59,460 nt of DNA from Acidobacteriota bacterium (lineage in GTDB: Bacteria > Acidobacteriota > Thermoanaerobaculia > Thermoanaerobaculales > Sulfomarinibacteraceae). Below the pieces are notes generated by a model, which did not search any database, was not told where the DNA came from, and was given only the letters and a program-made list of their open reading frames with translations. The stretch is taken from NCBI GenBank assembly GCA_024641545.1, contig JAHECW010000010.1:1-59460 (forward strand), given 5' to 3'. A program made the translations under genes and the position numbers. Positions 30,546 through 43,565 of this stretch are shown here, in pieces. Position 1 is the first letter of the stretch, and every line of letters begins with the position of its first letter.

Positions 30546-32705
30546 TCAATAGGTGTACCCGTCGTGCTCCTTCCCGTGGCACGTCAGGGTGCAGGTTCCG
30601 TTGTGCGTCCCCGTCGACACATACTCGAGAGTTCCGTTGAACGGAGTGACGACCGAGGTGTCGAAGTTGATGAGCTTGACGTTCGCCGAAGCGTGCGGAT
30701 CGTGGCAGACGTTGCACGGGGTTCTCTCGCCGGAAACGTGCTTCGAGTGGTCGTCGAAACTGGCGCCGCTGGAGAGGCTCGACCACGAGTGGCACTTGAA
30801 GCACATGGCGTACTTGGCCTGATTGAATTGCGAGTTGTTGTCGGCGGTGTCATGGCGTCGCTCGAGGAGGTACGGCCAGTCCGAGCCGTGCGGCCCGTTG
30901 TCGCCCGCGCCGCCGGCCGCCGGGCCGTCGTCGTTGTTGTGGCAGGTGGTGCAGCTCATGAGGCTGGTCTCGTCCCAGCCGTTGGTGGTGATGAGCGACG
31001 GAACGGAGGCGTTCGTGCCCTGCACCGAAACCGGGTGGTAAGACGCCATGGAACCGTCGAACTCCACCCGGAGATTGGACTCCGGGAACTGTCTCTGAGT
31101 CGGCGCCGCGGGCAGATTGGGACTGTCGGCGTGACAGCGGAAGCAGAGCTCGTACTCGTACGATGCCGGGTTGACCTCGTTCCCGGCGAGGTTGACGCCG
31201 CGAACACCCTCGAGCGGCCCCGACGCCGGTCTCGGCACGGTCGATGGGCCGGGAAGATTGACGCGGGCGACGGCGTCGTGCGGACCATGGCAGTCTTCGC
31301 ATTCGACGTGGCGCACGGTCACAGTGGCGGGCTCGTCCGACTGGTGGACCTCCGAGGCCAGCGCGACCGGGTGGACCGACGACTTTTGAAAATCGGTCCG
31401 CACATCGGCCGACGCCGGATTGCCGTCGTGGCAGGTGAAACAGAGTTTCTCCTCGAGGTCGACCTGAAGCCTGGGGTAGTCCCGGTTGACATCGTTGGTG
31501 TCTGGCCAGCCGTGCGCCTGGTGACAGTTGGCGCAGGTCGCCGTCTGCGACGAATCCGTGATGGCCGGAAACGTCGAACCGTACTGCCCCCCGGGCCACA
31601 GCGCGCCCGACGATCCCGGGTCGAGATGGGCCGCGGGGGTCGCGGTGTCGGCCAGGGTGTGGCACTCGATGCACAACGCGGTCCGGTTTGCACTCCGAAG
31701 CAGCGACCCGTCCGTGGTCGCCGAATCATGGATTTCGTGGCAGGTCAGGCACGCCACCCGGCTCGACGGATCGAGCGGCAGGGTGGCCGGTGGCTGGTAG
31801 GCCCCCGACCCGGGAACACCGGTCCCCACCGGATGGGATCCGTCACCGGTGCTGAGGACGTTCCTCGCATCGTGGCAATCGACGCACATCTCGCCGTTGG
31901 CGTTGTCCACGCGCATGAAGTGGCGCCCCTCACCGGTCCCGGCGCCACCGTAGGCGGGCGCGGCCGAATCGAAAGGCACCCTGGATTGGTTGTGTTGGTT
32001 GTGGCAGGTCGAGCACATGGCCCGGCCGTCTTCAAGGCGGCTCGACATCGCCGTCGCGGTCGGTCTTCTGAGATCGGTCCTGACGAAAATCCGCCAGACG
32101 TCACCCGAGACGAAGGACGGCGGGGTATCACCGTCGACGAAACTCGCGGTCACGCCTTCGTTGAGGGGGACATCGGCGCCGGTGGTCAGACCGGTTCCGC
32201 CGCCGCCCAGGGTGTCGTTCCAGGAAAAGACGGCGACACCGGCCACCCCGGAAGCGGTGATGGTCAGGGTGTAGGTCTTGGGGAACCGGCCGGCGAACAC
32301 ACCGCCGGGCACGACGTCACCACGCGAGGTGTTGCCGGCGTTCGGTTTGACGTGACCGGCGGCGCCCGAGTCCCAGCGGTGAGAGGTGCCGGAGGCCGGC
32401 GTCCCCGGGGGCAGCCCCGGCGACGGCGCAGCCTGGTCGGCGGCGACAAACGGGAACGCCGCGGCGAGCCCCCCGGTGACGTGGCAACTCATGCACAAGT
32501 TGCCGTTGCCCGAAACCGTCGTCAAACCGCCTCCCGCCGAGCTGTGCGTCGTGTGGCAGCTCGAGCAGTCGATGGCCCACGAGGAATCGTGCGGTGGATC
32601 CAACGCCTCGGCGGCGGGCACGATCAGCAGCAGGACCACCGCCGGCAGGAGCCGCCGCGCGAGGATTCCCACCGATGAACTACGGGGCTGCATCAGACCA
32701 GGCAT
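30546..32705 (-). CDS. Multihaem c-type cytochrome, 13 CxxCH plus one CxxxCH
   Basis: This 719-residue exported protein has a signal near residues 15-35. Thirteen CxxCH haem sites (first CSSCH, last CNVCH) and a final CxxxCH (CTLTCH) near the C-terminus are visible. Many sites have a following xxH (CHTTH, CHNQH, CHEIH, CHQAH, CHGPH, CHDPH), the doubled-CxxCH pattern that supplies the second axial ligand. Residues 100-200 form a haem-free beta-rich insert (KTYTLTITASGVAGVAVFSW). It probably works outside or at the outer membrane. The ATG at 32705 overlaps the NHL gene by 26 bases with GGAG 6-7 bases upstream. It is the last gene of the cytochrome locus. Confidence 0.93.
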   Translation of the reverse strand: MPGLMQPRSSSVGILARRLLPAVVLLLIVPAAEALDPPHDSSWAIDCSSCHTTHSSAGGGLTTVSGNGNLCMSCHVTGGLAAAFPFVAADQAAPSPGLPPGTPASGTSHRWDSGAAGHVKPNAGNTSRGDVVPGGVFAGRFPKTYTLTITASGVAGVAVFSWNDTLGGGGTGLTTGADVPLNEGVTASFVDGDTPPSFVSGDVWRIFVRTDLRRPTATAMSSRLEDGRAMCSTCHNQHNQSRVPFDSAAPAYGGAGTGEGRHFMRVDNANGEMCVDCHDARNVLSTGDGSHPVGTGVPGSGAYQPPATLPLDPSSRVACLTCHEIHDSATTDGSLLRSANRTALCIECHTLADTATPAAHLDPGSSGALWPGGQYGSTFPAITDSSQTATCANCHQAHGWPDTNDVNRDYPRLQVDLEEKLCFTCHDGNPASADVRTDFQKSSVHPVALASEVHQSDEPATVTVRHVECEDCHGPHDAVARVNLPGPSTVPRPASGPLEGVRGVNLAGNEVNPASYEYELCFRCHADSPNLPAAPTQRQFPESNLRVEFDGSMASYHPVSVQGTNASVPSLITTNGWDETSLMSCTTCHNNDDGPAAGGAGDNGPHGSDWPYLLERRHDTADNNSQFNQAKYAMCFKCHSWSSLSSGASFDDHSKHVSGERTPCNVCHDPHASANVKLINFDTSVVTPFNGTLEYVSTGTHNGTCTLTCHGKEHDGYTY

Positions 32706-33771
32706 TCACATCTCCAGTTTCGAAACCATCGCTGAAGATCACACCGTTCGGGGGCGGGGTCAGAAAGTCGTCCAGACCGAAGACCTCCACCCGGCCGCTG
32801 TTCACCGAAGACACGAAGAGCCGGTTCAAGCCGTCGATGGCCATCCCGAACGGCGTCCGGAACTGGCCGGGTCGATCTCCCAGGCTGCCGATGACGGCGA
32901 GTTCCGCTCCGTCGCCGTCAAAGACCTTGACATGGCCCTGGAAAGCGTCGGCGACATACACTCTGCCATCGAGGTCCCCGACGACGCCCTGGATTCGGCC
33001 GAAGTTCCGATTTCCCCCGCCCTGAGCTCCGAAACACCTGAGGAACGAGCCATCCCGGTCAAAGACCTGAACCCGATCGTTGTTCTGATCGCCGACGAAG
33101 ACCTCGCCGCCGGGACTCACCCAGAGCGCCGACGGGAAATCGAACTGTCCGGGCCCGGTCCCCGGCCCGCCGAAGGAACGCACCAGTTGGCCGCCGGGTC
33201 CGTAGACTTTGATCAGATCCGCCCCACCATCGGCGACAAAGATCAGGCCGAGACCGAGGTCCGGGTCGACGGCGATGTCGGTGACGGAGAGAAACTCGCC
33301 CGCGCCCGAGCCGAGGACCCCGGCGTGCTGCCACGACGAATCGAAGATGTCCACCCGGCCCATCGACTGGTCGCCGACGTAGATGGTGTCGAAGGCATCC
33401 ACCGCGATGGCGAGTGGGACGCCCATGCCGCCGCGGACCGCAACGACGACGCCGTAAACATCCTTCACCACCACCGCGCCCCGGGTCGGGTCGGTGAGGT
33501 AGATCCTGTCCTGGGAGTCGGTCGTCAGCCGCGCCGGGGCCCGCAGGCCCTCGGGTTGCGAGTCCAGGAACTCGACATCAGGAGGGGGCAGGACGGGCGT
33601 GCCGCCCCAGCTGCAGAGCTGAGCCGAAACGACCGACGAACCACCCAGAAGGACGACGACGAACGCGCCGATCAACGCCAGGACCGCCCGATTCCCGGGT
33701 CGCGTGGCGCGGCCCGAGCACTGCCGTGCGAAGCGCATTCCGGTCACCATCTCTGTTGCGTTCATGACCAC
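32680..33771 (-). CDS. Secreted NHL-repeat beta-propeller with DGFETGD tail
   Basis: This 363-residue protein has a signal or anchor at about residues 28-50 and then six-bladed NHL repeats. Examples are LTTDSQDRIYLTDPTRGAVVV, LWVSPGGEVFVGDQNNDRVQVFD and FGMAIDGLNRLFVSSVNSGRVEVF. The C-terminus reads IFSDGFETGDVNAWS, a short tail also found on the unrelated protein at 58049. NHL propellers bind proteins or other large ligands; in cytochrome-nanowire gene clusters such propellers are recurrent companions. The GTG at 33771 has GGAG 8 bases upstream. It overlaps the 14-haem cytochrome gene downstream and lies 153 bases below the 8-haem gene. Confidence 0.88.
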   Translation of the reverse strand: MVMNATEMVTGMRFARQCSGRATRPGNRAVLALIGAFVVVLLGGSSVVSAQLCSWGGTPVLPPPDVEFLDSQPEGLRAPARLTTDSQDRIYLTDPTRGAVVVKDVYGVVVAVRGGMGVPLAIAVDAFDTIYVGDQSMGRVDIFDSSWQHAGVLGSGAGEFLSVTDIAVDPDLGLGLIFVADGGADLIKVYGPGGQLVRSFGGPGTGPGQFDFPSALWVSPGGEVFVGDQNNDRVQVFDRDGSFLRCFGAQGGGNRNFGRIQGVVGDLDGRVYVADAFQGHVKVFDGDGAELAVIGSLGDRPGQFRTPFGMAIDGLNRLFVSSVNSGRVEVFGLDDFLTPPPNGVIFSDGFETGDVNAWSDAAP

Positions 33772-33924: not shown

Positions 33925-35055
33925 TCAGTCCTTTCTGTCGTCGGGTCTGGTTCCCGGCCGCGGCGGCGCCTGAACCCCGGCCGGATACCGACCGAGGTTC
34001 CGGTCGTGGCCGGGGTCGGCAAACCTCGGTCGACCTTCGGCGGTGAACATCGGCCCGTAACCGAGGGGGTTGTGATCGACGCCGTGACAGGTCAGATAGC
34101 AGCCCCCCATTCCCGCCGCTTCCGAGCTGTACTCGAGCCGCCCCGAACTCGAGGCCAGGACGCCGGTGATCGCCGTGGGTTCGTTGAAGCGGATGAGGGC
34201 CCGCCCAGCGGTCGCGCCGTGGGCATCGTGGCACAGGACGCATGCGGTTCGTTGGTCCGCGACGTGCATTCGGTGGTAGGGAAAGGGATCGGAATCGAGT
34301 ACGACGGTTCGATCGTGGCATTGATAGCACAGGGCGTAACTGCTCTCCGACTCCGGCTGTCCGTCCTGAATCGAGTAATCTGCGCCGAGCAATCCGGGCA
34401 CCCGGCTCCCGTGCGGCCCGCGCGCGCCTCGGGCATCATCGTTGGTGTGGCAATCAGAACAGTTGATCAGCGAATCCGATGTCAGCGGCGGCAGGAGGCT
34501 CGGAACCTCGCCGACACCGATGGCGAGGACCGGGTGGAACGAGGGATTCCTCGAGTCGAAGAGCAGCCCGATGTCATGGGGATCCGAGACCATGGCTGAT
34601 CGGGTTCCATGACACGACAGGCAGAGGCTCGCTTCGGTGGGGAAACCCCGCTTCGGCGAAGGCTTCTGCCGTCCGAGGTCGAGGCCGGTCCCGGTCAGGC
34701 CCTGCAGCCGGCCGATGCCGTGAACACTGTGGCAGTCAACACACCGCGCCCCACGGTGGATCACCGGTTTGACCATTTCCCCGCGGATGTCCGCCGGGTC
34801 GGCGCCGGAGTCCATTCCGAGGGCTTCGCGCCGGCCGGGCTCGGCGGCGCCCGCCTGATGGCACGCAATGCACATCACGTCGCTCTCGCTCTTCAACATG
34901 GGTGTGCGGGCGGCCCCGTGACCCTCGTGACACGGGGTGCAGGCTTCGGCGAGCTTGCCCGGCTCGAAGTGCTTGCCGAGATCAACCGCCGAAACCGCCG
35001 GCGCGACCAGGAAAACCGCCGCTGCGGCCGTTCTCAGGAATGACAGGCGATACAT
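33925..35055 (-). CDS. Octahaem c-type cytochrome, 7 CxxCH plus one CxxxCH
   Basis: This 376-residue exported protein has a signal at residues 1-23. Seven CxxCH sites are seen (CTPCH, CIACH, CVDCH, CLSCH, CSDCH, CYQCH, CVLCH) and one CxxxCH (CYLTCH) near residue 329. The region around the last two sites is plainly homologous to the C-terminus of the 14-haem protein (DAHG, GRLEY, CxLTCHGxxH), so they are paralogues. The C-terminal tail after the last haem is Arg/Pro-rich. The ATG at 35055 lies within the tetrahaem gene (22-base overlap) with GGGAGAG just before it. It is a probable periplasmic or surface electron carrier. Confidence 0.93.
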   Translation of the reverse strand: MYRLSFLRTAAAAVFLVAPAVSAVDLGKHFEPGKLAEACTPCHEGHGAARTPMLKSESDVMCIACHQAGAAEPGRREALGMDSGADPADIRGEMVKPVIHRGARCVDCHSVHGIGRLQGLTGTGLDLGRQKPSPKRGFPTEASLCLSCHGTRSAMVSDPHDIGLLFDSRNPSFHPVLAIGVGEVPSLLPPLTSDSLINCSDCHTNDDARGARGPHGSRVPGLLGADYSIQDGQPESESSYALCYQCHDRTVVLDSDPFPYHRMHVADQRTACVLCHDAHGATAGRALIRFNEPTAITGVLASSSGRLEYSSEAAGMGGCYLTCHGVDHNPLGYGPMFTAEGRPRFADPGHDRNLGRYPAGVQAPPRPGTRPDDRKD

Positions 35056-35687
35056 AACTCTCCCGGTTTCGCGGTGAGAAGAAAATTGCCGTAGGGATCG
35101 CGATGGGGATCATGGCAGGTCGTGCACTGGATCCGATTCTCCTCGTCGAGTTTCGCGAGGGGGTGGTTCCGCATCTCCGACACCGATCGCAGAGGCACAT
35201 CACCCTTGGAGTTGTTGGTCGTGACGAGGTGATCGGTCACCGTGAAGGAGACCGGATGATCGCCGCTGAGATCACGACCGAGATTCGATTCCGAGGTCGA
35301 CGGCATGGTGGTGATGCCGCCACGCATTTCGATGCGGCCCGACGACACCGTCGACCCGAGAGCGATGGTCCCGTCGTGGCAGGACAGACAGAGCTTCGAG
35401 GAACCATTGGGCTGCGGCGCCTCACCCGAGGAACCGTAGGCGTCCATGGTTTCGCTCCAGTACATCTGGTAGCTGCCTCCGGGACTCTCCCGATTCCACA
35501 ACGGCGCCTGAAAAACCGCGTTGTGGGTCGTGTGACAGAAGATGCACACCCTGGTCTCCGACACCGCCCGGACGGCACCCGGACCGGTCACCGACAGATT
35601 GTGGGCCGTGTCGCGGACGCTCTCCTGCGACCACGCCAGCACCGCCAGGCCGAAAACCAACGTCAAGGTCACCATTGCGCGTCTCAT
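35034..35687 (-). CDS. OmcE-like tetrahaem c-type cytochrome, second copy
   Basis: This 217-residue protein has a signal at residues 1-20 and four CxxCH sites: C48-H52, C100-H104, C188-H192 and C212-H216. The order AHN(L)S, CHTTH, APLWN, CLSCHDGTIAL, SGDHPVSF, CTTCHDPH and LCIACH at the very end is the layout of OmcE-type nanowire subunits. It is shared point by point with the protein at 39526. One difference stands out: the PLWNH histidine is Arg66 here (PLWNR). Other free histidines are H29, H55, H144, H153, H175 and H195. It starts at an ATGA overlap with the upstream NHL gene and overlaps the octahaem gene. Confidence 0.85.
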   Translation of the reverse strand: MRRAMVTLTLVFGLAVLAWSQESVRDTAHNLSVTGPGAVRAVSETRVCIFCHTTHNAVFQAPLWNRESPGGSYQMYWSETMDAYGSSGEAPQPNGSSKLCLSCHDGTIALGSTVSSGRIEMRGGITTMPSTSESNLGRDLSGDHPVSFTVTDHLVTTNNSKGDVPLRSVSEMRNHPLAKLDEENRIQCTTCHDPHRDPYGNFLLTAKPGELCIACHS

Positions 35688-36691
35688 TTCCGGTTGTCCC
35701 TCCGTTGGTAGCGCATGAGCTGGATCCGTCGATTCCCGGTGTCCGCTACGACCATCTGCCCGCGCCCATCGATGGCGAGGCCTCCCGGCGTCCAGAACTC
35801 ACCCGCATTGAAACCGCGGCCGCCGATGATGAGCAGTAGCCGGCCGTCCTGGTCGAAGACCTGCACCGCGTCGAAGCGCGCATCGGACACATAGAGGTGG
35901 CCGTCGGGGTCGATCGCCAGTCCCTTGGCCAGGGCGAAATGGCCGGATCCGTCCCCGTGCTGGCCGAACTGAGACAGGTATCGAAGATCCGCGTCGAACT
36001 GTTGGACGCGGAAATTGAAGGGATCGAGGACCCAGATCGTGCCGTCCGGCGCCTCGACGATGGCGGTGGGGGTGTTGAACTCGCCGTCGCCGGTGCCGCG
36101 CCTGCCGGTCCTGGCCACCTCGAGTCCGTCGGAGCGGACCCGCACGACCTGACCGGCCTCGGCATCGGTGATCACGACGTCGGAATTCGCACACACGGCG
36201 ATCCCGCCACAACGCTGCACGACGTCTCGGCCCACCACCTCGCCAAGCAGCGAGCCCTTGGGCTCGAACGCGAAGACCACCCCGCTGTCACGATCCGCGA
36301 CCAGAATCCGGTCCCCGTCCCGGTTTGACGCGATGGCGACCGGTGCCACTCCGTCAGGCAACTTCAACCTGGTTGCTGCGCTTCCGTCGGTCCTGCCGCC
36401 GATCACCCAACCCACCGCCGTGTCGACGACGAAGACCCGGTCTTTGGCGAGGGCGACGGCAACCGGCCGCGGCAGCTGCCACGACTGTTGATGCCGCTCC
36501 GCACCCGCCACCGCGCGGAAGACCCGACCCAGGCCCTTGGGACGGAACTCGTCGACGATGCCCTGCCAGACAACCTCCGCCGGAGCAACCGCGGTCGCGG
36601 GCGGCCAGACCGGACCGTCGGCGCCCACCGCCGGCAACGGCAGGCAAGCCGCCCCGAACACGACCATGAGCATGACGCGGTGCATTCTCAC
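35684..36691 (-). CDS. NHL-repeat beta-propeller of the cytochrome locus
   Basis: This 335-residue exported protein has a signal at residues 1-23. A VWPPATAVAPAEVVWQG segment follows, which parallels ILYPAAPAQAVVEWVG in the propeller at 40484. NHL blades follow (VAVALAKDRVFVVDTAVGWV, IVEAPDGTIWVLDPFNFRVQQFD, LAIDPDGHLYVSDARFDAVQVFD, LAIDGRGQMVVADTGNRRIQLM). It is translationally coupled on both sides: GTG overlapping the barrel stop and ATGA into the tetrahaem gene. A role in docking or assembly of the surface cytochromes is inferred from the conserved pairing of such propellers with OmcE-like genes. Confidence 0.9.
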   Translation of the reverse strand: MRMHRVMLMVVFGAACLPLPAVGADGPVWPPATAVAPAEVVWQGIVDEFRPKGLGRVFRAVAGAERHQQSWQLPRPVAVALAKDRVFVVDTAVGWVIGGRTDGSAATRLKLPDGVAPVAIASNRDGDRILVADRDSGVVFAFEPKGSLLGEVVGRDVVQRCGGIAVCANSDVVITDAEAGQVVRVRSDGLEVARTGRRGTGDGEFNTPTAIVEAPDGTIWVLDPFNFRVQQFDADLRYLSQFGQHGDGSGHFALAKGLAIDPDGHLYVSDARFDAVQVFDQDGRLLLIIGGRGFNAGEFWTPGGLAIDGRGQMVVADTGNRRIQLMRYQRRDNRK

Positions 36692-38448
36692 CGTCGCTGG
36701 TCTCCGGCTCTGAAGGTGAAGACCCGCCTCACCCCGACCCAGATTCTCCGGAACCGGCGCTGTTCGAGCCCCGCCTCCTCGGTCCGCTGCTCGCGGACCC
36801 GTGCGTAGAACGAGAGTTTGGCGTAGTTGAACCGCATTCCAAGCTCCGCGAATTCATAGGTCCCGAAAAATTCGAAGACCTTGCGTTCCTCGGAACGCAC
36901 ATACGCGTCGAACATCAACCAGTACGTCGGTGCCCAGCTGATGTTCGCCTGCCAGACATCGGTCAGGGTCGGAACCTCGCCCCCGACCAGCTCGAATCGG
37001 TCCCCGGAGGCGCCGATGGTCACCGGCCCGAGCGCGATGTTGAGCTGGGCTCGCACAACATTCTCCTCGATCTCGGCCCCACGATCCAACCGCACCCTGT
37101 TTCGGTAGTCGCCCTCCAGGGAAATCGCGCTTCGGCGGCTGGGTCGGACCTCAAAGATCAACCGACCCCGGTAGCGTCGTCGATCGAGTCCGGTGAGGAA
37201 CGCGCTTTCGATCGGGGGGCCACCGATGTCGTAGTCCGGGATGGAGAGTTGGTTGTCGAAATACTCGGCCTCGAAGGTCACGCTGGAACGGTCCATCTGG
37301 TAGCGGACCGAACCGAAGAACAGCGACCCCAGAGCGGACTCCGTCTCGAGGCTCTCGGGATCGGCCCGGAGGTAGGTCACCCGCGGGTACAGCGCCAGCC
37401 ACCAGCGGCCGAACTGTTTGCCCCATCTCAGCCCGAGGCCGGCGCGAGGTTGGCCGAGCCGCAGGCCATCGCCGAACTCATTGCTCAGATAGCCGAGCTC
37501 GCCTTCGAGAAAGGTCGACGGGCTCAACGGGGCCACCACGCTGGCCGAGACATTCCCGGTGATGACCTCCTCGACCGGATCGGTCTCGACCCTGACAACC
37601 CTGAGATCCGCCCTCAGATCCCAGAAGCCGAGCTGACTGTAACGGTGACGCAACTGGTTTCTGAACAGGTAGTTCGTTGTCCATGGCGAGAACTCGCCGT
37701 GATCTTGAGCCGAACGGTAGAGGTTTCCGATGAGGTCGGTGTGCCAGTAGACCCGGCCGGTCCGGTTGACATCGACATCCAGCCGGCCGGTCCCGATCTC
37801 CTGCTGCAGGCCGCCTCCGAAGAGGTCGTTCGTCTTCCACAGAAGCTGCAGCACGGCGTCGACCTTGCCGACGGCCGCCTGGGTCGAGAGCTCGCTCCAG
37901 GCGGTGTCCTCGTCGCGAAGCGTCTCCGGCTGATCGGCCGTGAAGCTCTGGTTCCAGTGCCGGAGATTGAGGCGGAACCAGTCACCCCCGAGGGCGCGAA
38001 GACCGAAACGCTGGTAGTCGCGCACGCCGTCGACAATCGCACCCTGCATCAGACCCGTCACATCGGTGCCCTGGCGCCCCGCGCCGAGCTCGAACGAGAC
38101 CGCGCGGTTGTTGAAAAACCGCAGCGACCCGTCGTAGTAGGTGTCATCCACCTTGTTGCCCTGTTGGCCCGAGATGGTCTGATTCGACAGTGTCTTCGCG
38201 ATACTGGCGTCATAGGTCATGAATCTCGGGTCGACGAAGTGGCCGGAAACGGCCGCCCAGAGGACGGATTGGAGATTCGACCTCGTGGCTGAACTGCTCC
38301 GGTACTCCTGCGAATCGCTGAGGTATTCCGCCGACAGGCCAAGGGTGAAGGTCGCACCGCTCGAGGCCCAGACCGAGCCGGCGGCGCCCCACAGACAGAT
38401 CGCGGCACCGAACAGGCGAGCGGCGGGGTTCAGAAGCTGTCGATGCAC
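36688..38448 (-). CDS. Outer-membrane beta-barrel of the cytochrome locus
   Basis: This 586-residue protein has a signal at residues 8-29 and then alternating amphipathic strands throughout (ATFTLGLSAEYLSDSQEY, VSFELGAGRQG, LGLRWGKQFGRWWLALYPRVTYL, KLSFYARVREQR). There is no plug or TonB box. It is consistent with a 20-plus-stranded porin-like barrel, such as the outer-membrane part of a porin-cytochrome conduit or a filament secretion channel. It starts at GTG 38448 within the foldase gene (19-base overlap) and ends overlapping the NHL gene. The position between foldase, propeller and tetrahaem genes supports an electron-transfer or export role. The last residues are not the usual terminal Phe. 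Confidence 0.85.
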   Translation of the reverse strand: MHRQLLNPAARLFGAAICLWGAAGSVWASSGATFTLGLSAEYLSDSQEYRSSSATRSNLQSVLWAAVSGHFVDPRFMTYDASIAKTLSNQTISGQQGNKVDDTYYDGSLRFFNNRAVSFELGAGRQGTDVTGLMQGAIVDGVRDYQRFGLRALGGDWFRLNLRHWNQSFTADQPETLRDEDTAWSELSTQAAVGKVDAVLQLLWKTNDLFGGGLQQEIGTGRLDVDVNRTGRVYWHTDLIGNLYRSAQDHGEFSPWTTNYLFRNQLRHRYSQLGFWDLRADLRVVRVETDPVEEVITGNVSASVVAPLSPSTFLEGELGYLSNEFGDGLRLGQPRAGLGLRWGKQFGRWWLALYPRVTYLRADPESLETESALGSLFFGSVRYQMDRSSVTFEAEYFDNQLSIPDYDIGGPPIESAFLTGLDRRRYRGRLIFEVRPSRRSAISLEGDYRNRVRLDRGAEIEENVVRAQLNIALGPVTIGASGDRFELVGGEVPTLTDVWQANISWAPTYWLMFDAYVRSEERKVFEFFGTYEFAELGMRFNYAKLSFYARVREQRTEEAGLEQRRFRRIWVGVRRVFTFRAGDQRR

Positions 38449-39401
38449 CCTCGGACCTCGATCGTCGCTCGGTCGGACAACTCACGATCGAACTCCTCGA
38501 GCCGGCGCTGTCTCTTCTCCCGTATGATCCTTTCCTCCACCGCATCCCACACGACGGCGAGCTCGACCGGTTGTGATGGACGCGTGCTGATCACTTGCAG
38601 GACGTGGTAGCCGAATATCGACGACACCGGGTCGGTCACCTCTCCAACCTGTGCCGAGAAGACCGCCGCATCGACGGCGGGCTGCAGCGATCCGCGGTGG
38701 ACAAAACCGATGTCGCCCACCTGATCACGGAACCGAGGCGGCAGCGCCTCGAGCACGGTCTTCCCGATGACGAGAAGCGACGCCTTACTGCTGCGGGCTG
38801 CGCTGACGAGTTCGCGGGCGCGCTGCTCGGCCTCCTGCCACTCCTCCCGAGTCGCGGACGGCGGGACGTAGAACAGGATATCGGCAACATGACGTGCTTC
38901 CGGGGTCATATAGTCGTCGCCGTGAAGGATGAAGAAGACCTCGACCTCGGTCGCGGTCGCAGGCTCCACGCCGGCGACCACCGCGCGGTCGACCGCTTCG
39001 GCCACGGCGTCCCGTGCGAGGGCCGACCGGAAGGCGTCCTCCGCGATTCCCTTGGTCGCGAGCGCGGCGCGGTACTGCTCATCGCTCTTGAAGCGTTGTC
39101 GCACCTCCCGCCACGCCGCCTCGGCCGCCGACGGATCGACCTCGACCGGGTTGGCCGGCGCCCACTGCCGCTTGAGCTCTTTGAGAACCAGAATGTCGAG
39201 GGCTTCACACCTGAGTTCGGCCCTGCGTTCGGCGGAGACCTCCCGGTGATAACTCCCGACCGAGATCCGCACCGCGAGCTCACGATCGAGTTCCCACGAC
39301 TCGAGCCGAGCGCCGTTGACCACGGCGACCGGATCGGACGCGTCCGCCCGCGCCGCGCCCGCCGCAGCGCACACGAACCATGCGATGAGGATGACCTTCA
39401 C
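38430..39401 (-). CDS. PpiC/SurA-type peptidyl-prolyl isomerase
   Basis: This protein of about 323 residues has a signal (VKVILIAWFVCAAAGAARA), a SurA-like N-terminal helical chaperone region (PVAVVNGARLESWELDRELA, then a long helical stretch), and a parvulin rotamase domain at about residues 175-290 (ARHVADILFYVP, FRDQVGDIGFVHRG, SIFGYHVLQVI). It should help fold exported proteins, here most likely the barrel and cytochromes encoded beside it. The GTG at 39401 is chosen because it gives a compact signal peptide; the longer frame upstream runs through the terminator of the tetrahaem gene. It overlaps the barrel gene by 19 bases. Foldases of this type recur in nanowire cytochrome clusters. Confidence 0.85.
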   Translation of the reverse strand: MKVILIAWFVCAAAGAARADASDPVAVVNGARLESWELDRELAVRISVGSYHREVSAERRAELRCEALDILVLKELKRQWAPANPVEVDPSAAEAAWREVRQRFKSDEQYRAALATKGIAEDAFRSALARDAVAEAVDRAVVAGVEPATATEVEVFFILHGDDYMTPEARHVADILFYVPPSATREEWQEAEQRARELVSAARSSKASLLVIGKTVLEALPPRFRDQVGDIGFVHRGSLQPAVDAAVFSAQVGEVTDPVSSIFGYHVLQVISTRPSQPVELAVVWDAVEERIIREKRQRRLEEFDRELSDRATIEVRGCIDSF

Positions 39402-39456: not shown

Positions 39457-39497
39457 CAACAAAAGACACGGGAGACGAGGTCGTCGCCTCCCGTGTC
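39457..39497 (-). terminator. Rho-independent terminator after the OmcE-like gene
   Basis: The perfect 10-bp stem GACACGGGAG/CTCCCGTGTC (39465-39474 and 39488-39497) has a 13-base loop and is followed on the minus strand by TTTTGTTGG. It lies 29 bases after the OmcE-like stop and upstream of the foldase start. It would make the tetrahaem mRNA mostly separate and abundant, with some read-through into the foldase-barrel operon. Confidence 0.8.
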
Positions 39498-39525: not shown

Positions 39526-40137
39526 CTACTTCGCGTGACAACGGAGGCAGATGGTGCTCCCTGCGGGATCTTCCACCAGAAGCGACGGGTTACCGCCGAC
39601 GGCGCCTCCGTTGTGGACATCGTGGCAGGTCGCGCACTCCACCTTGTTGGCAAAGAGATAGTCTGCAATGGTCCCGTCGGCGTAGGTCGCCGAGGTCGGA
39701 TTGAGCTCGGGATCCTGTCCCGTGCCGGTTCCGGCGCTGTAGGTCACGCTGATCGGGTGATCGTTCGATAGATCTGTTCCAACCAGGGCGCCGCCTCCGA
39801 TGTACGTCGTTCCGGTGGTGTTGCCGCCGAAGTTCTCCAGCGCAACGGTGCCGTCGTGACAGGAAAGACACGCCTTGGAGACATCGGCCGGCTGCGCATC
39901 GACCTCCCCATCGAGGGTGTCGCTGGTGTACATGGTGAAGTTCGACGTCGTCACCTCGTGGTTCCACAACGGAGCAACAAAGGCGGTTTCGCCATCGTGG
40001 GTCGTGTGGCACGGCAGGCAGATGGTGCCGTTCGACCAGGTCTCGTTGCTGAAATCATGTGCGCTGTTGGTGATCTGGGCGCTGGCCACCCCGGCTCCCA
40101 GAATCAAACACATGCTCGTCACAATCGCTTTCTTCAT
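39526..40137 (-). CDS. OmcE-like tetrahaem cytochrome, candidate nanowire subunit
   Basis: This 203-residue exported protein has a signal (residues 1-20, ending VASAQ) and four CxxCH haem sites: C40-H44, C90-H94, C168-H172 and C197-H201. There are five further histidines for axial ligation: H27 (SAHDFS), H47 (CHTTH), H60 (PLWNH), H127 (SNDHPIS) and H175 (CHDVH). The SAHDFS, CLPCHTTH, APLWNH, CLSCHDGT, DLSNDHPIS, KVECATCHDVHN and terminal CLRCHAK series is the layout I associate with OmcE, which polymerises into a micrometre-long haem wire in Geobacter. It has its own promoter, a strong Shine-Dalgarno (GGAGGG, 8 bases) and a strong terminator, as expected for a highly expressed filament subunit. 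Filament formation is inference. Confidence 0.88.
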   Translation of the reverse strand: MKKAIVTSMCLILGAGVASAQITNSAHDFSNETWSNGTICLPCHTTHDGETAFVAPLWNHEVTTSNFTMYTSDTLDGEVDAQPADVSKACLSCHDGTVALENFGGNTTGTTYIGGGALVGTDLSNDHPISVTYSAGTGTGQDPELNPTSATYADGTIADYLFANKVECATCHDVHNGGAVGGNPSLLVEDPAGSTICLRCHAK

Positions 40138-40257
40138 GATCCATGCCCTCCGATTTCAATTCACCAGAGACCCGAATCGAACCCGGCTGCCGGCGTGAGC
40201 CGCCCACGCGTGACTGCGAACGACCCGCAGGTTCGGACGAGCCTCATCAACGGCCGA

Positions 40258-40286
40258 AGCATACGATGCGATTATTCCCGTTTCAA
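40258..40286 (-). promoter_or_regulatory. Sigma-70-type promoter of the OmcE-like gene
   Basis: On the minus strand TTGAAA (-35, 40286-40281), a 17-base spacer and TATGCT (-10, 40263-40258). The predicted start of transcription is about 40251, giving a leader of about 113 bases. Confidence 0.65.
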
Positions 40287-40304
40287 TACTTGCACCAATG
40301 AACA

Positions 40305-40320
40305 TGTGACTAAGGGCACA
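40305..40320. promoter_or_regulatory. CRP/FNR-like site at about -61.5 of the OmcE-like promoter
   Basis: TGTGA-CTAAGG-GCACA matches nine of ten CRP consensus positions. Its centre (40312.5) is 61.5 bases upstream of the predicted transcription start, the classical class I activator position. Which CRP/FNR-family protein would bind is unknown. Confidence 0.5.
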
Positions 40321-40483: not shown

Positions 40484-41533
40484 TCACTGCGGTGCACCGA
40501 GGAACCGAAACAGCTGAAGCCGGTGGTTGAGGGTGTCGGCGACGACCAGCAGCTCATCACGCTTCGCGATTCCTGACGGCAAGGAGAATTGCCCCGGCCC
40601 CTGGCCCGGTTCTCCGAACCACATCAGAAGCTCGCCGTCGAGGTTGAACATCTGGACCAGTTGGAACGCGCCGTCCACCTCGTACAACACACCGTTGTCC
40701 GAGTCGGCGACCAGGCCTCGGGGCCGATTCAGGTTCCCCGGGCTGTCGCCGGCACTCCCGAAGATCAGATCGAGATCGCCGGCCGGATCAAAGACCTGAA
40801 TCCGGAAGTTCAAGTAGTCCGAGACATAGAGGTAACCCTCACCGTCAAAGGCCGCCGCCACCGGAAAGTTGAACTCACCGTCGCGGGCGCTGCCGACGTG
40901 GCCTCCCAAGGTCATCACCGCCAAACCCGTCGCGGTTTCGATCACATCGACCGCGTGACGTCCGGTGTCGCAGACCGCGATCCGATCGCCGCCGGGCGTC
41001 AACGCGATGGACGTCGGTCGATCGAAGATCCCGGCGCCACCGTAGGCCCTCACGAACCGGAGATCGCGATCGTAAGAGTAGACGGCCTGCGAACTCGCAT
41101 CACTGACGTACAGGGTTCCGTCCTCGGCTACCGCCACTCCGACGGGCTGGAAGAGCGATCCCGGAGAGGCGCCGCGGAAGAGCTCGAACCGCCGTTGGTC
41201 CTGATTGATGACCACGACCCCCCGGAGGTGCTGGTCAACTACGAAGATGGTTCGATCCGGCCCGATCGCCACCGCCGTCGGCGCCATGAGCGAGGCTTCC
41301 TGTTCCTCTTCGCCCACCAGAACCTTCCTCCAGGTGCGGCTGCGGGTGTCGACATCTGCGTGCGTGCCGATGGCTCCTACCCACTCCACAACCGCCTGGG
41401 CCGGGGCCGCAGGATAGAGAATTCTGGTCGACCCGGATGCCGTCCTCCGATCGGCGGGCGCGCCGCCCGAGCTGCATGAGGCAACGAACACTGCCACAAC
41501 CAATAGAAGTACGAAGTGCGATCGATGATCCAT
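40484..41533 (-). CDS. NHL-repeat propeller lipoprotein
   Basis: This protein of about 349 residues has a lipoprotein signal with lipobox VASC (C20 if started at the ATG at 41533). It is a six-bladed NHL propeller (VAIGPDRTIFVVDQHLRGVVVI, VAVAEDGTLYVSDASSQAVYSYD, AAFDGEGYLYVSDYLNFRIQVFD, LLVVADTLNHRLQLFRF). The ILYPAAPAQAVVEWVG segment after the signal parallels the propeller at 35684. An alternative ATG at 41557 overlaps the stop of the 21-haem gene (ATGA), but gives a worse signal peptide and no Shine-Dalgarno; GAGAGCGGGG precedes the chosen start. It is likely anchored in the outer membrane and coupled to the 21-haem cytochrome. Confidence 0.88.
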   Translation of the reverse strand: MDHRSHFVLLLVVAVFVASCSSGGAPADRRTASGSTRILYPAAPAQAVVEWVGAIGTHADVDTRSRTWRKVLVGEEEQEASLMAPTAVAIGPDRTIFVVDQHLRGVVVINQDQRRFELFRGASPGSLFQPVGVAVAEDGTLYVSDASSQAVYSYDRDLRFVRAYGGAGIFDRPTSIALTPGGDRIAVCDTGRHAVDVIETATGLAVMTLGGHVGSARDGEFNFPVAAAFDGEGYLYVSDYLNFRIQVFDPAGDLDLIFGSAGDSPGNLNRPRGLVADSDNGVLYEVDGAFQLVQMFNLDGELLMWFGEPGQGPGQFSLPSGIAKRDELLVVADTLNHRLQLFRFLGAPQ

Positions 41534-41553
41534 GAGTAACGCCCCGCTCTCGT

Positions 41554-43305
41554 TCATTTGGGGTGGCACGCAATGCACAGCTCGGCCTGGTTGGTCGCCT
41601 TCCAGGTGAAGAGTTTCGAGCTCGGCGCGGCGTGGGGCTCGTGGCACTGCCGGCAACTCATCTCTTGGCCCACAAGAGACTTCGCCACCTGCGTCCGGCC
41701 CTTGGCTTCGATGACTCCGGTCACGGGGTGCTCGGGAATCGGGTGGTTCTTGCGAAGACCGGGGTCGAGGTCGATCACTTTGAGATCCTTCGCCCGTTCG
41801 CCCCGGAGCACATACCCTCCTTCGAGTCTGATGCTCTCATCTCGCCCCGCCTTCACCCGGCTCTGGAGGTGACACCCGTTGCAGAGGTCGTTGCCGGAAG
41901 CCTTGAGGAGGTGCTCCTCCGCGCCGCCGTGCGGCAGGTGACAGCTGTGACAGCCGATCCACGAGATCGCCCGGTGGACGGCGTCGCCCTCTCCGCCGGC
42001 CTGGTCCTCATGGCAGTCAAGGCACAGCCCGCCTCCCGCGGCGCGCAGGAGCTTCGGCTGCCGTGATGCGTGGGGAGAGTGACAGTCCACGCACTCCAGG
42101 GCTGCCATGGCAGGGTGGGGAACGGCGGCGGTCGCGATGGTTTCGGAGACCTCTTCGTGGCAGTTCTCGCACAGGGCGTTGCCGCCTCCGTCCACCAGGT
42201 TCGGCGCCGAGCCTTCGTGACAGTTGCTGCAGCCCTCGCGGAACGGCGGATGAATCGATCCGTTGGCGATCAGCGGCAGGCTCGACGACCCGTGCGGGTC
42301 GTGGCAGCTGCCGCAGCGAGCGGTCGCCATCTCCGCCCCGAAGTGCAACCTCCGAAGCTCGGGGTCGGAAGCGTCGTGGCAGGCGCGACAGAGTTCGTCC
42401 TCGTCGTCCAGAAGCATTGCCGGCCGATCGCTGGAATGCGCATCGTGACAGCCGTCGCAGCCATCCTCCAGGGCCGCGTGACCACCGGGCCCTTTCGCCC
42501 GTTCGGCAATCTCCGGGTGGCAGGAGAAACACAGGTCTCCGCCACCCGCCTTGAGCAGGAAGGGCTGTTCTGCGAGGTGGGGATCGTGGCACCCGACGCA
42601 GCGGCCCTGCTTGACCGCAGTGTGCACCACAGCGCCGTTCTTCGTCGCCACCCCTCCATGGCACGCCTCACACAGCGAACCCCCTTCATGAAGCAACCGA
42701 ACCCGGGTCCCTCTCGGCTTTCGGTGGCACGCTTCGCACGAACCCTCCGCGAAGGGCAGATGCCGCGAAACGCCCCGTAACATGTGTTCGTTCTCCGAAC
42801 CGTGCGTGTCGTGGCACGAACGACAATCGGCGCGGCGCACCGGGATGGGGTGCAGCGCGTCGGTCGCGTCCGCGTCGTGGCACTGCCCGCAGACCTGCCC
42901 GGGGTCCACCACCAGCAACGCATCGAAGTCGGTGCCGTGCGGATCGTGGCAGGTCCCGCAGTCGTCGATCACCGGCGCATGGGGGACCGCGACCTTGCCC
43001 TCCGCGGCCTTGACCATACCGTCGTGACACGCCAGGCAGAGCGCCGAACCGGTGTCCACCAGCCCGACGGTCGTCGTTTCCTCACCCTGATCGAACGCGT
43101 GGCACGTCAAACAGTCGTCGACGGCCGGAGGGTGGGGAATTCGAACCGCGAGAATCTCGTCGTGACAGGTCTCGCAGGTGGTCTTTTCCGGGTCCACGAG
43201 CGTCGGGTGATCCGCCGCCGATGCGATTTCCACGGCGGCGCCGGCGACCACCAGGATCGCCACGCAAAGACCGCGACCGAAGACGGATCGGTGTTGTATC
43301 TGCAT
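41554..43305 (-). CDS. 21-haem c-type cytochrome (doubled CxxCH type)
   Basis: This 583-residue exported protein has a signal near residues 8-31. I count 21 CxxCH sites, from CETCH near residue 44 to CIACH at the last residues, about one haem per 28 residues. The sites come in pairs of the doubled-CxxCH type, with CHDPH, CHDTH, CHDAH, CHSPH, CHLPH and CHEPH providing second-ligand histidines. Pairs are separated by LLxxxGGxLCxxCH repeats, suggesting growth by tandem duplication. One haem-poor basic segment (about residues 480-545) precedes the last pair. The ATG at 43305 has GGAG upstream. It heads the locus and could be a periplasm-spanning or surface wire. Confidence 0.94.
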   Translation of the reverse strand: MQIQHRSVFGRGLCVAILVVAGAAVEIASAADHPTLVDPEKTTCETCHDEILAVRIPHPPAVDDCLTCHAFDQGEETTTVGLVDTGSALCLACHDGMVKAAEGKVAVPHAPVIDDCGTCHDPHGTDFDALLVVDPGQVCGQCHDADATDALHPIPVRRADCRSCHDTHGSENEHMLRGVSRHLPFAEGSCEACHRKPRGTRVRLLHEGGSLCEACHGGVATKNGAVVHTAVKQGRCVGCHDPHLAEQPFLLKAGGGDLCFSCHPEIAERAKGPGGHAALEDGCDGCHDAHSSDRPAMLLDDEDELCRACHDASDPELRRLHFGAEMATARCGSCHDPHGSSSLPLIANGSIHPPFREGCSNCHEGSAPNLVDGGGNALCENCHEEVSETIATAAVPHPAMAALECVDCHSPHASRQPKLLRAAGGGLCLDCHEDQAGGEGDAVHRAISWIGCHSCHLPHGGAEEHLLKASGNDLCNGCHLQSRVKAGRDESIRLEGGYVLRGERAKDLKVIDLDPGLRKNHPIPEHPVTGVIEAKGRTQVAKSLVGQEMSCRQCHEPHAAPSSKLFTWKATNQAELCIACHPK

Positions 43306-43549: not shown

Positions 43550-43565
43550 TGTGACGCTGATCACT
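43550..43565. promoter_or_regulatory. CRP/FNR-like palindrome upstream of the 21-haem gene
   Basis: TGTGA-CGCTGA-TCACT matches nine of ten CRP consensus positions. It lies about 80 bases above the weak candidate transcription start of the 21-haem gene and about 190 bases from the divergent S4 gene. Confidence 0.42.

Follow-up and report, generated by a model that had tools for sequence, protein, structure and literature searches.

The OmcE1 gene and its cluster

The window analysed here, a stretch of 59,460 nucleotides from a contig of an Acidobacteriota bacterium, carries a series of genes on one strand encoding, in order of transcription, a 21-haem cytochrome, an NHL-repeat lipoprotein, the tetrahaem cytochrome OmcE1, a PpiC/SurA-type foldase, a putative outer-membrane beta-barrel, an NHL-repeat protein, a second OmcE-like cytochrome (OmcE2), a 7-haem cytochrome, another NHL-repeat protein and a 13-haem cytochrome (Table 1). 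No family match was found for the putative barrel. Eight relatives, ranging from members of the same genus to members of the same class, show this gene order with some variation, and most of them have two OmcE-like genes; a recognisable foldase is missing from the clusters of some class members. OmcE1 had been described as a stand-alone gene for one abundant filament subunit; "stand-alone" is too strong because the gene lies in a conserved same-strand cluster holding a second OmcE-like copy, and the word "one" disregards that copy. OmcE2 is 37% identical to OmcE1 and is kept in the relatives, where a minor, cap or base subunit has been raised as a possible role for it; it lacks a T-run hairpin and dedicated control signals.

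Table 1. Genes and predicted control elements of the OmcE1 cluster (positions in the window).
Feature	Position	Strand	Basis or remark
21-haem cytochrome opening the cluster	41554..43305	-	ATG start inferred
NHL-repeat lipoprotein upstream of OmcE1	40484..41557	-	ATG start inferred
CRP-like palindrome, TGTGCCCTTAGTCACA on the - strand	40305..40320	.	
Predicted -35 element, TTGAAA	40281..40286	-	
Predicted -10 element, TATGCT	40258..40263	-	start predicted at 40251 (G); aligns with TATAGT in L042
Ribosome-binding site, GGAGGG	40146..40151	-	
OmcE1, tetrahaem OmcE-like cytochrome, 203 aa	39526..40137	-	ORF list, CxxCH motifs, similarity
Hairpin, intrinsic-terminator-like site	39465..39497	-	
PpiC/SurA-type foldase	38430..39401	-	GTG start at 39401 inferred
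Putative outer-membrane beta-barrel	36688..38448	-	barrel by inference only
NHL-repeat protein	35684..36691	-	
OmcE2, second OmcE-like tetrahaem cytochrome	35034..35687	-	
7-haem cytochrome	33925..35055	-	
NHL-repeat protein	32680..33771	-	
13-haem cytochrome	30546..32705	-	

OmcE1 as a candidate filament subunit

The identification of OmcE1 as an OmcE-like tetrahaem cytochrome is borne out by its four CxxCH motifs and by similarity over essentially its full length to its only two solved relatives, the Geobacter sulfurreducens OmcE filament subunit (7TFS; E 1.5e-16, residues 10-203) and, as best solved match, the putative multiheme cytochrome c 9YUQ (16 chains; 4e-20). Bacteria stack cytochromes of this kind into filaments that conduct electricity. 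A signal peptide was recognised by eye. All four CxxCH motifs, and with them the additional histidines H27, H47, H127 and H175, are invariant among 37 homologues, giving eight histidines in all, the number that four bis-His haems require. The hallmark of OmcE filaments is that one haem is ligated by a histidine from the neighbouring subunit (PMC9473688). An AlphaFold2 model of OmcE1, computed with the 37 homologues and no haems, was poor (pLDDT 54.7). OmcE1 shares with G. sulfurreducens OmcE the full-length similarity, the four CxxCH motifs, the conserved extra histidines and the signal peptide; it differs in its low identity and shorter loops and in its setting, an Acidobacteriota-type MAG where it belongs to a 21-haem/NHL/foldase/barrel cluster with a second OmcE-like gene. 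In the reading preferred below, OmcE1 would be a filament-forming subunit.

Alternatively, OmcE1 could be a monomeric or cell-surface electron carrier, with a filament, if any, formed by OmcE2 or another cytochrome. OmcE2 is indeed the closer of the two to OmcE 7TFS (3.4e-29), but OmcE1 matches 9YUQ at least as closely (4e-20, vs 2e-18 for OmcE2), keeps every haem ligand, and is the one of the pair that carries the hairpin and dedicated control described below, which makes a carrier role unlikely.

The hairpin downstream of OmcE1-type genes

Between OmcE1 and the foldase gene lies a hairpin of 14 pairs with a loop of 5 and the tail TTTTGTTG (-25.7 kcal/mol), so that both elements of an intrinsic terminator, a GC-rich hairpin and a U-run, are found here, the U-run being imperfect. 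A perfect terminator had been claimed at this place: the stem is perfect, whereas the U-tract is not, and the site falls just outside the interval 39526-40320 first singled out.

The 97 OmcE1-type genes compared for a downstream hairpin came from relatives in the same class and from named contigs belonging to many phyla. A perfect stem was scored if it lay no more than 90 nt past the stop codon and had a stability of -10 kcal/mol or better, a cut-off set by us; a cut-off of -14 gave the same picture. A hairpin was present in 75% of the OmcE1-type genes (median -17.5), compared with 12% for the other multihaem genes and 16% for the NHL genes at the same loci. When the comparison was limited to genes whose next gene lies on the same strand 40-400 nt away, the counts were 53/65 vs 6/66 (p 4e-18), although such p-values are optimistic because homologues share ancestry; at the level of clusters of OmcE1-type genes formed at 60% identity, 14 of 17 showed the hairpin. 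Among 14 OmcE2 genes, 21% had a hairpin and none a hairpin with a T-run. The hairpin sequences vary among relatives, indicating that it is the structure that is kept, and the downstream neighbour in most other phyla is an NHL lipoprotein rather than a foldase, so that the hairpin goes with the tetrahaem gene and not with a particular neighbour.

A hairpin with 4 or more T among the 8 bases that follow was found in 43% of the 97 genes. Since a clear T-run is absent in more than half of the homologues, termination is not certain and stabilisation is a live alternative, in which the hairpin would mainly protect the 3' end of the mRNA or block its processing, OmcE1 and its helpers being co-transcribed and the OmcE1 part living longer. 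Very stable hairpins lacking a good U-run, as in L047, L048 and L049, agree with such a role; a T-run directly after the hairpin in the window and in the relatives G018, G003 and G001, together with the near absence of T-run hairpins behind other cluster genes, argues against it, and we consider it improbable as the main function.

Predicted promoter, palindrome and ribosome site

All the control elements listed for OmcE1 in the original prediction were located in the sequence, and the observation as a whole is real. The ribosome site is GGAGGG, and a GGAGG precedes the tetrahaem gene in 9/9 genomes compared. As to the gene's own sigma-70 promoter, TTGAAA-17-TATGCT is present and is the sole sigma-70-like match in the 3.5 kb scanned; the hexamers are nevertheless weak evidence on their own, because 0.4 matches are expected by chance over that length. 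The stretch from the upstream NHL gene to OmcE1 yielded no terminator, and read-through into OmcE1 is therefore possible. An Rfam scan of the window region returned nothing credible (tpke11, at E 0.22, fell well short of its cut-off).

The palindrome reads on the + strand as TGTGA-N6-GCACA, one mismatch from the CRP consensus TGTGA-N6-TCACA, and also as TGT-N10-ACA. Its centre, 40312.5, lies exactly at -61.5, as had been proposed, if transcription begins 7 nt after the -10 element, at the G which we take as the predicted start. Allowing at most one mismatch, the whole window contains 3 CRP-like sites vs 0.93 expected, and the chance expectation for the 346-nt gap upstream of OmcE1 is about 0.005. 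Pattern searches of the whole genome located TGTGAN6KCACA at 11 places, vs 1 for a reversed control. Another CRP-like palindrome, TGTGACGCTGATCACT, occurs at 43550-43565, about 245 nt before the inferred start of the 21-haem cytochrome.

In the nearest orthologous locus, L042, which belongs to another genus and encodes an OmcE1 orthologue with 80% protein identity, a perfect CRP box (TGTGAGTTGGATCACA) is centred 181 nt before the ATG, vs about 175 in the window; the upstream DNA is otherwise hardly alignable, yet the box is kept, and it is the only perfect TGTGAN6TCACA in this partial 1.9-Mb genome. The same sigma-70 scan gave no match in L042, where some 95 bp separate the box from the aligned -10-like element, vs 52 in the window. 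The -61.5 spacing and the sigma-70 promoter are thus not shown to be conserved features.

The genome encodes one CRP-type protein with an SRETV recognition helix (PF00027 and PF13545) and a complete-looking cyclic-nucleotide signature (pocket GEMALL..PRSAS), which comes closest, of the solved bacterial regulators, to a CRP/FNR-family member taken by us to be mycobacterial CRP and whose solved relatives include E. coli CRP. A class III cyclase is also encoded, cAMP synthesis and binding being putative. Some of the genome's CRP-like palindromes adjoin energy-metabolism genes: sites at L032, L036 and L037 lie close to genes that were identified by eye as AprA-like, as a proton-pumping pyrophosphatase and as an isocitrate dehydrogenase; the L036 site sequence is also present in the same-genus genome G001. 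FNR was rejected as the regulator, the second CRP/FNR protein of the genome having a GPEVLSR-type helix that, by eye, is unsuited to TGTGA. Of the global redox or carbon control originally envisaged, the carbon or energy part fits: the SRETV CRP, the cyclase and the sites near energy-metabolism genes favour such control by CRP over FNR. The CRP-type protein is the candidate for binding the OmcE1 palindrome.

Upstream control among homologues

Upstream regions of 102 homologues were compared with shuffled sequences. CRP boxes with at most one mismatch were present in 10 of them vs 0.8 in shuffles (maximum 4), FNR boxes in 14 vs 2.3 (maximum 6), and perfect FNR boxes numbered 6 vs 0.08. Newly sampled gammaproteobacterial genes had an FNR box in 4/5 cases, one of which seemingly repeats L098 of the first set. 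With the sigma-54 consensus as given in PMC2725144, promoters scoring 10-12 of 12 were found in 7/8 class relatives (G001, G003, G005, G014, G018, G019 and G021), a count that is no independent test because the idea came from viewing these relatives. Among the class relatives, strong sigma-54 promoters, for example TGGCACGGAGGTTGCA, stand 69-85 nt upstream of the tetrahaem start codon at L044, L047, L048, L049 and L051. Over all loci, sigma-54 elements at -130..-35 occur in 20/102 homologues vs 8/356 other genes; the distant loci come closer to an independent test. In a Desulfobacteraceae MAG, a c-di-GMP-I riboswitch identified with Rfam (L056:5737-5829) lies directly ahead of the OmcE-type gene; Rfam runs on other OmcE1-type regions gave no further riboswitch.

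Given these high-scoring elements in the relatives, an RpoN gene in the genome, and an L042 palindrome that would stand about 99 bp before the sigma-54 start, a sigma-54-type promoter at OmcE1, with the palindrome as an enhancer-binding-protein site and not a CRP site, was considered and rejected as very improbable, as the best match (TGGTGCAAGTATTGAA, 40297-40282) scores 8 of 12 and has no -12 C, and the palindrome would then sit some 15 bp from the -24 element, a distance too short for an enhancer.

As CRP/FNR sites, sigma-54 promoters or, once, a riboswitch occur upstream in different lineages, it is a dedicated regulated start that recurs while the regulator changes, and independent control of the tetrahaem gene looks conserved across this exchange. 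The separate control of the subunit gene that had been predicted is hence strongly supported by comparison, through the conserved 3' hairpin and the recurrent dedicated control upstream, whereas the class I spacing is not kept in L042.

Proposed mechanism

The reading we prefer, with a probability of about 0.6, is that OmcE1 serves as the principal building block of an OmcE-type cytochrome filament, expressed from its own CRP-activated promoter, with a hairpin that raises the level of subunit mRNA. OmcE1 would be transcribed mainly from this adjacent promoter, with a CRP-family protein, probably a CRP of the cyclic-nucleotide type, acting as activator from the palindrome; the hairpin past the stop codon would then end most transcripts or shield the short OmcE1 message. 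OmcE1 mRNA would in this way be more abundant than the mRNA for the foldase, the barrel and the propeller proteins encoded downstream, helpers whose genes would be reached via read-through or from other promoters. Such an architecture can reasonably be taken to mean that more subunit than helper protein would be produced.

Relation to known systems and significance

Separate promoters for cytochrome genes have a precedent in Shewanella oneidensis, in which omcA and mtrC have separate CRP-activated promoters, as established by reporters and gel shift (PMC4417206). These genes encode cytochromes of extracellular electron transfer with separate promoters under CRP, as is predicted for OmcE1; they differ in encoding other cytochromes in another phylum, and the accessible part of PMC4417206 describes no conserved hairpin of this kind. 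The Oet-type clusters of syntrophic sulfate reducers (PMC10553843) similarly combine a putative filament cytochrome with a neighbouring beta-barrel and with large multihaem cytochromes, and in SEEP-SRB a PPIase and a beta-propeller protein are encoded in a related operon (PMC12246660); unlike here, the filament candidates of the Oet-type clusters are OmcX, OmcS and Apc2a and not OmcE-type (PMC10553843). Neither a terminator nor CRP control was found described for genes of the omcE type in the literature searched, a partial coverage that does not establish absence.

When cells build cytochrome filaments, and which of their many cytochromes is the filament brick, are unsettled questions. The recurrence of the hairpin and of some dedicated switch in many unrelated bacteria suggests that the brick is made separately from its helper proteins. 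Whether a general rule holds across phyla, by which OmcE-type subunit genes would carry a private module inside shared assembly clusters, with a regulated promoter in front (CRP/FNR, sigma-54 or c-di-GMP riboswitch, depending on the lineage) and a hairpin behind, so that subunit-specific expression would set the number or length of the wires, is in our estimate evenly balanced. The hairpin and the dedicated control offer a testable sequence mark of the subunit among clustered cytochromes in many phyla, and this mark points to the signals used, namely a cyclic nucleotide, oxygen or redox state, sigma-54 activators and c-di-GMP. If the rule is true, the module would allow the genes of filament subunits, and the signals that control them, to be predicted in uncultured phyla with nothing but their DNA.
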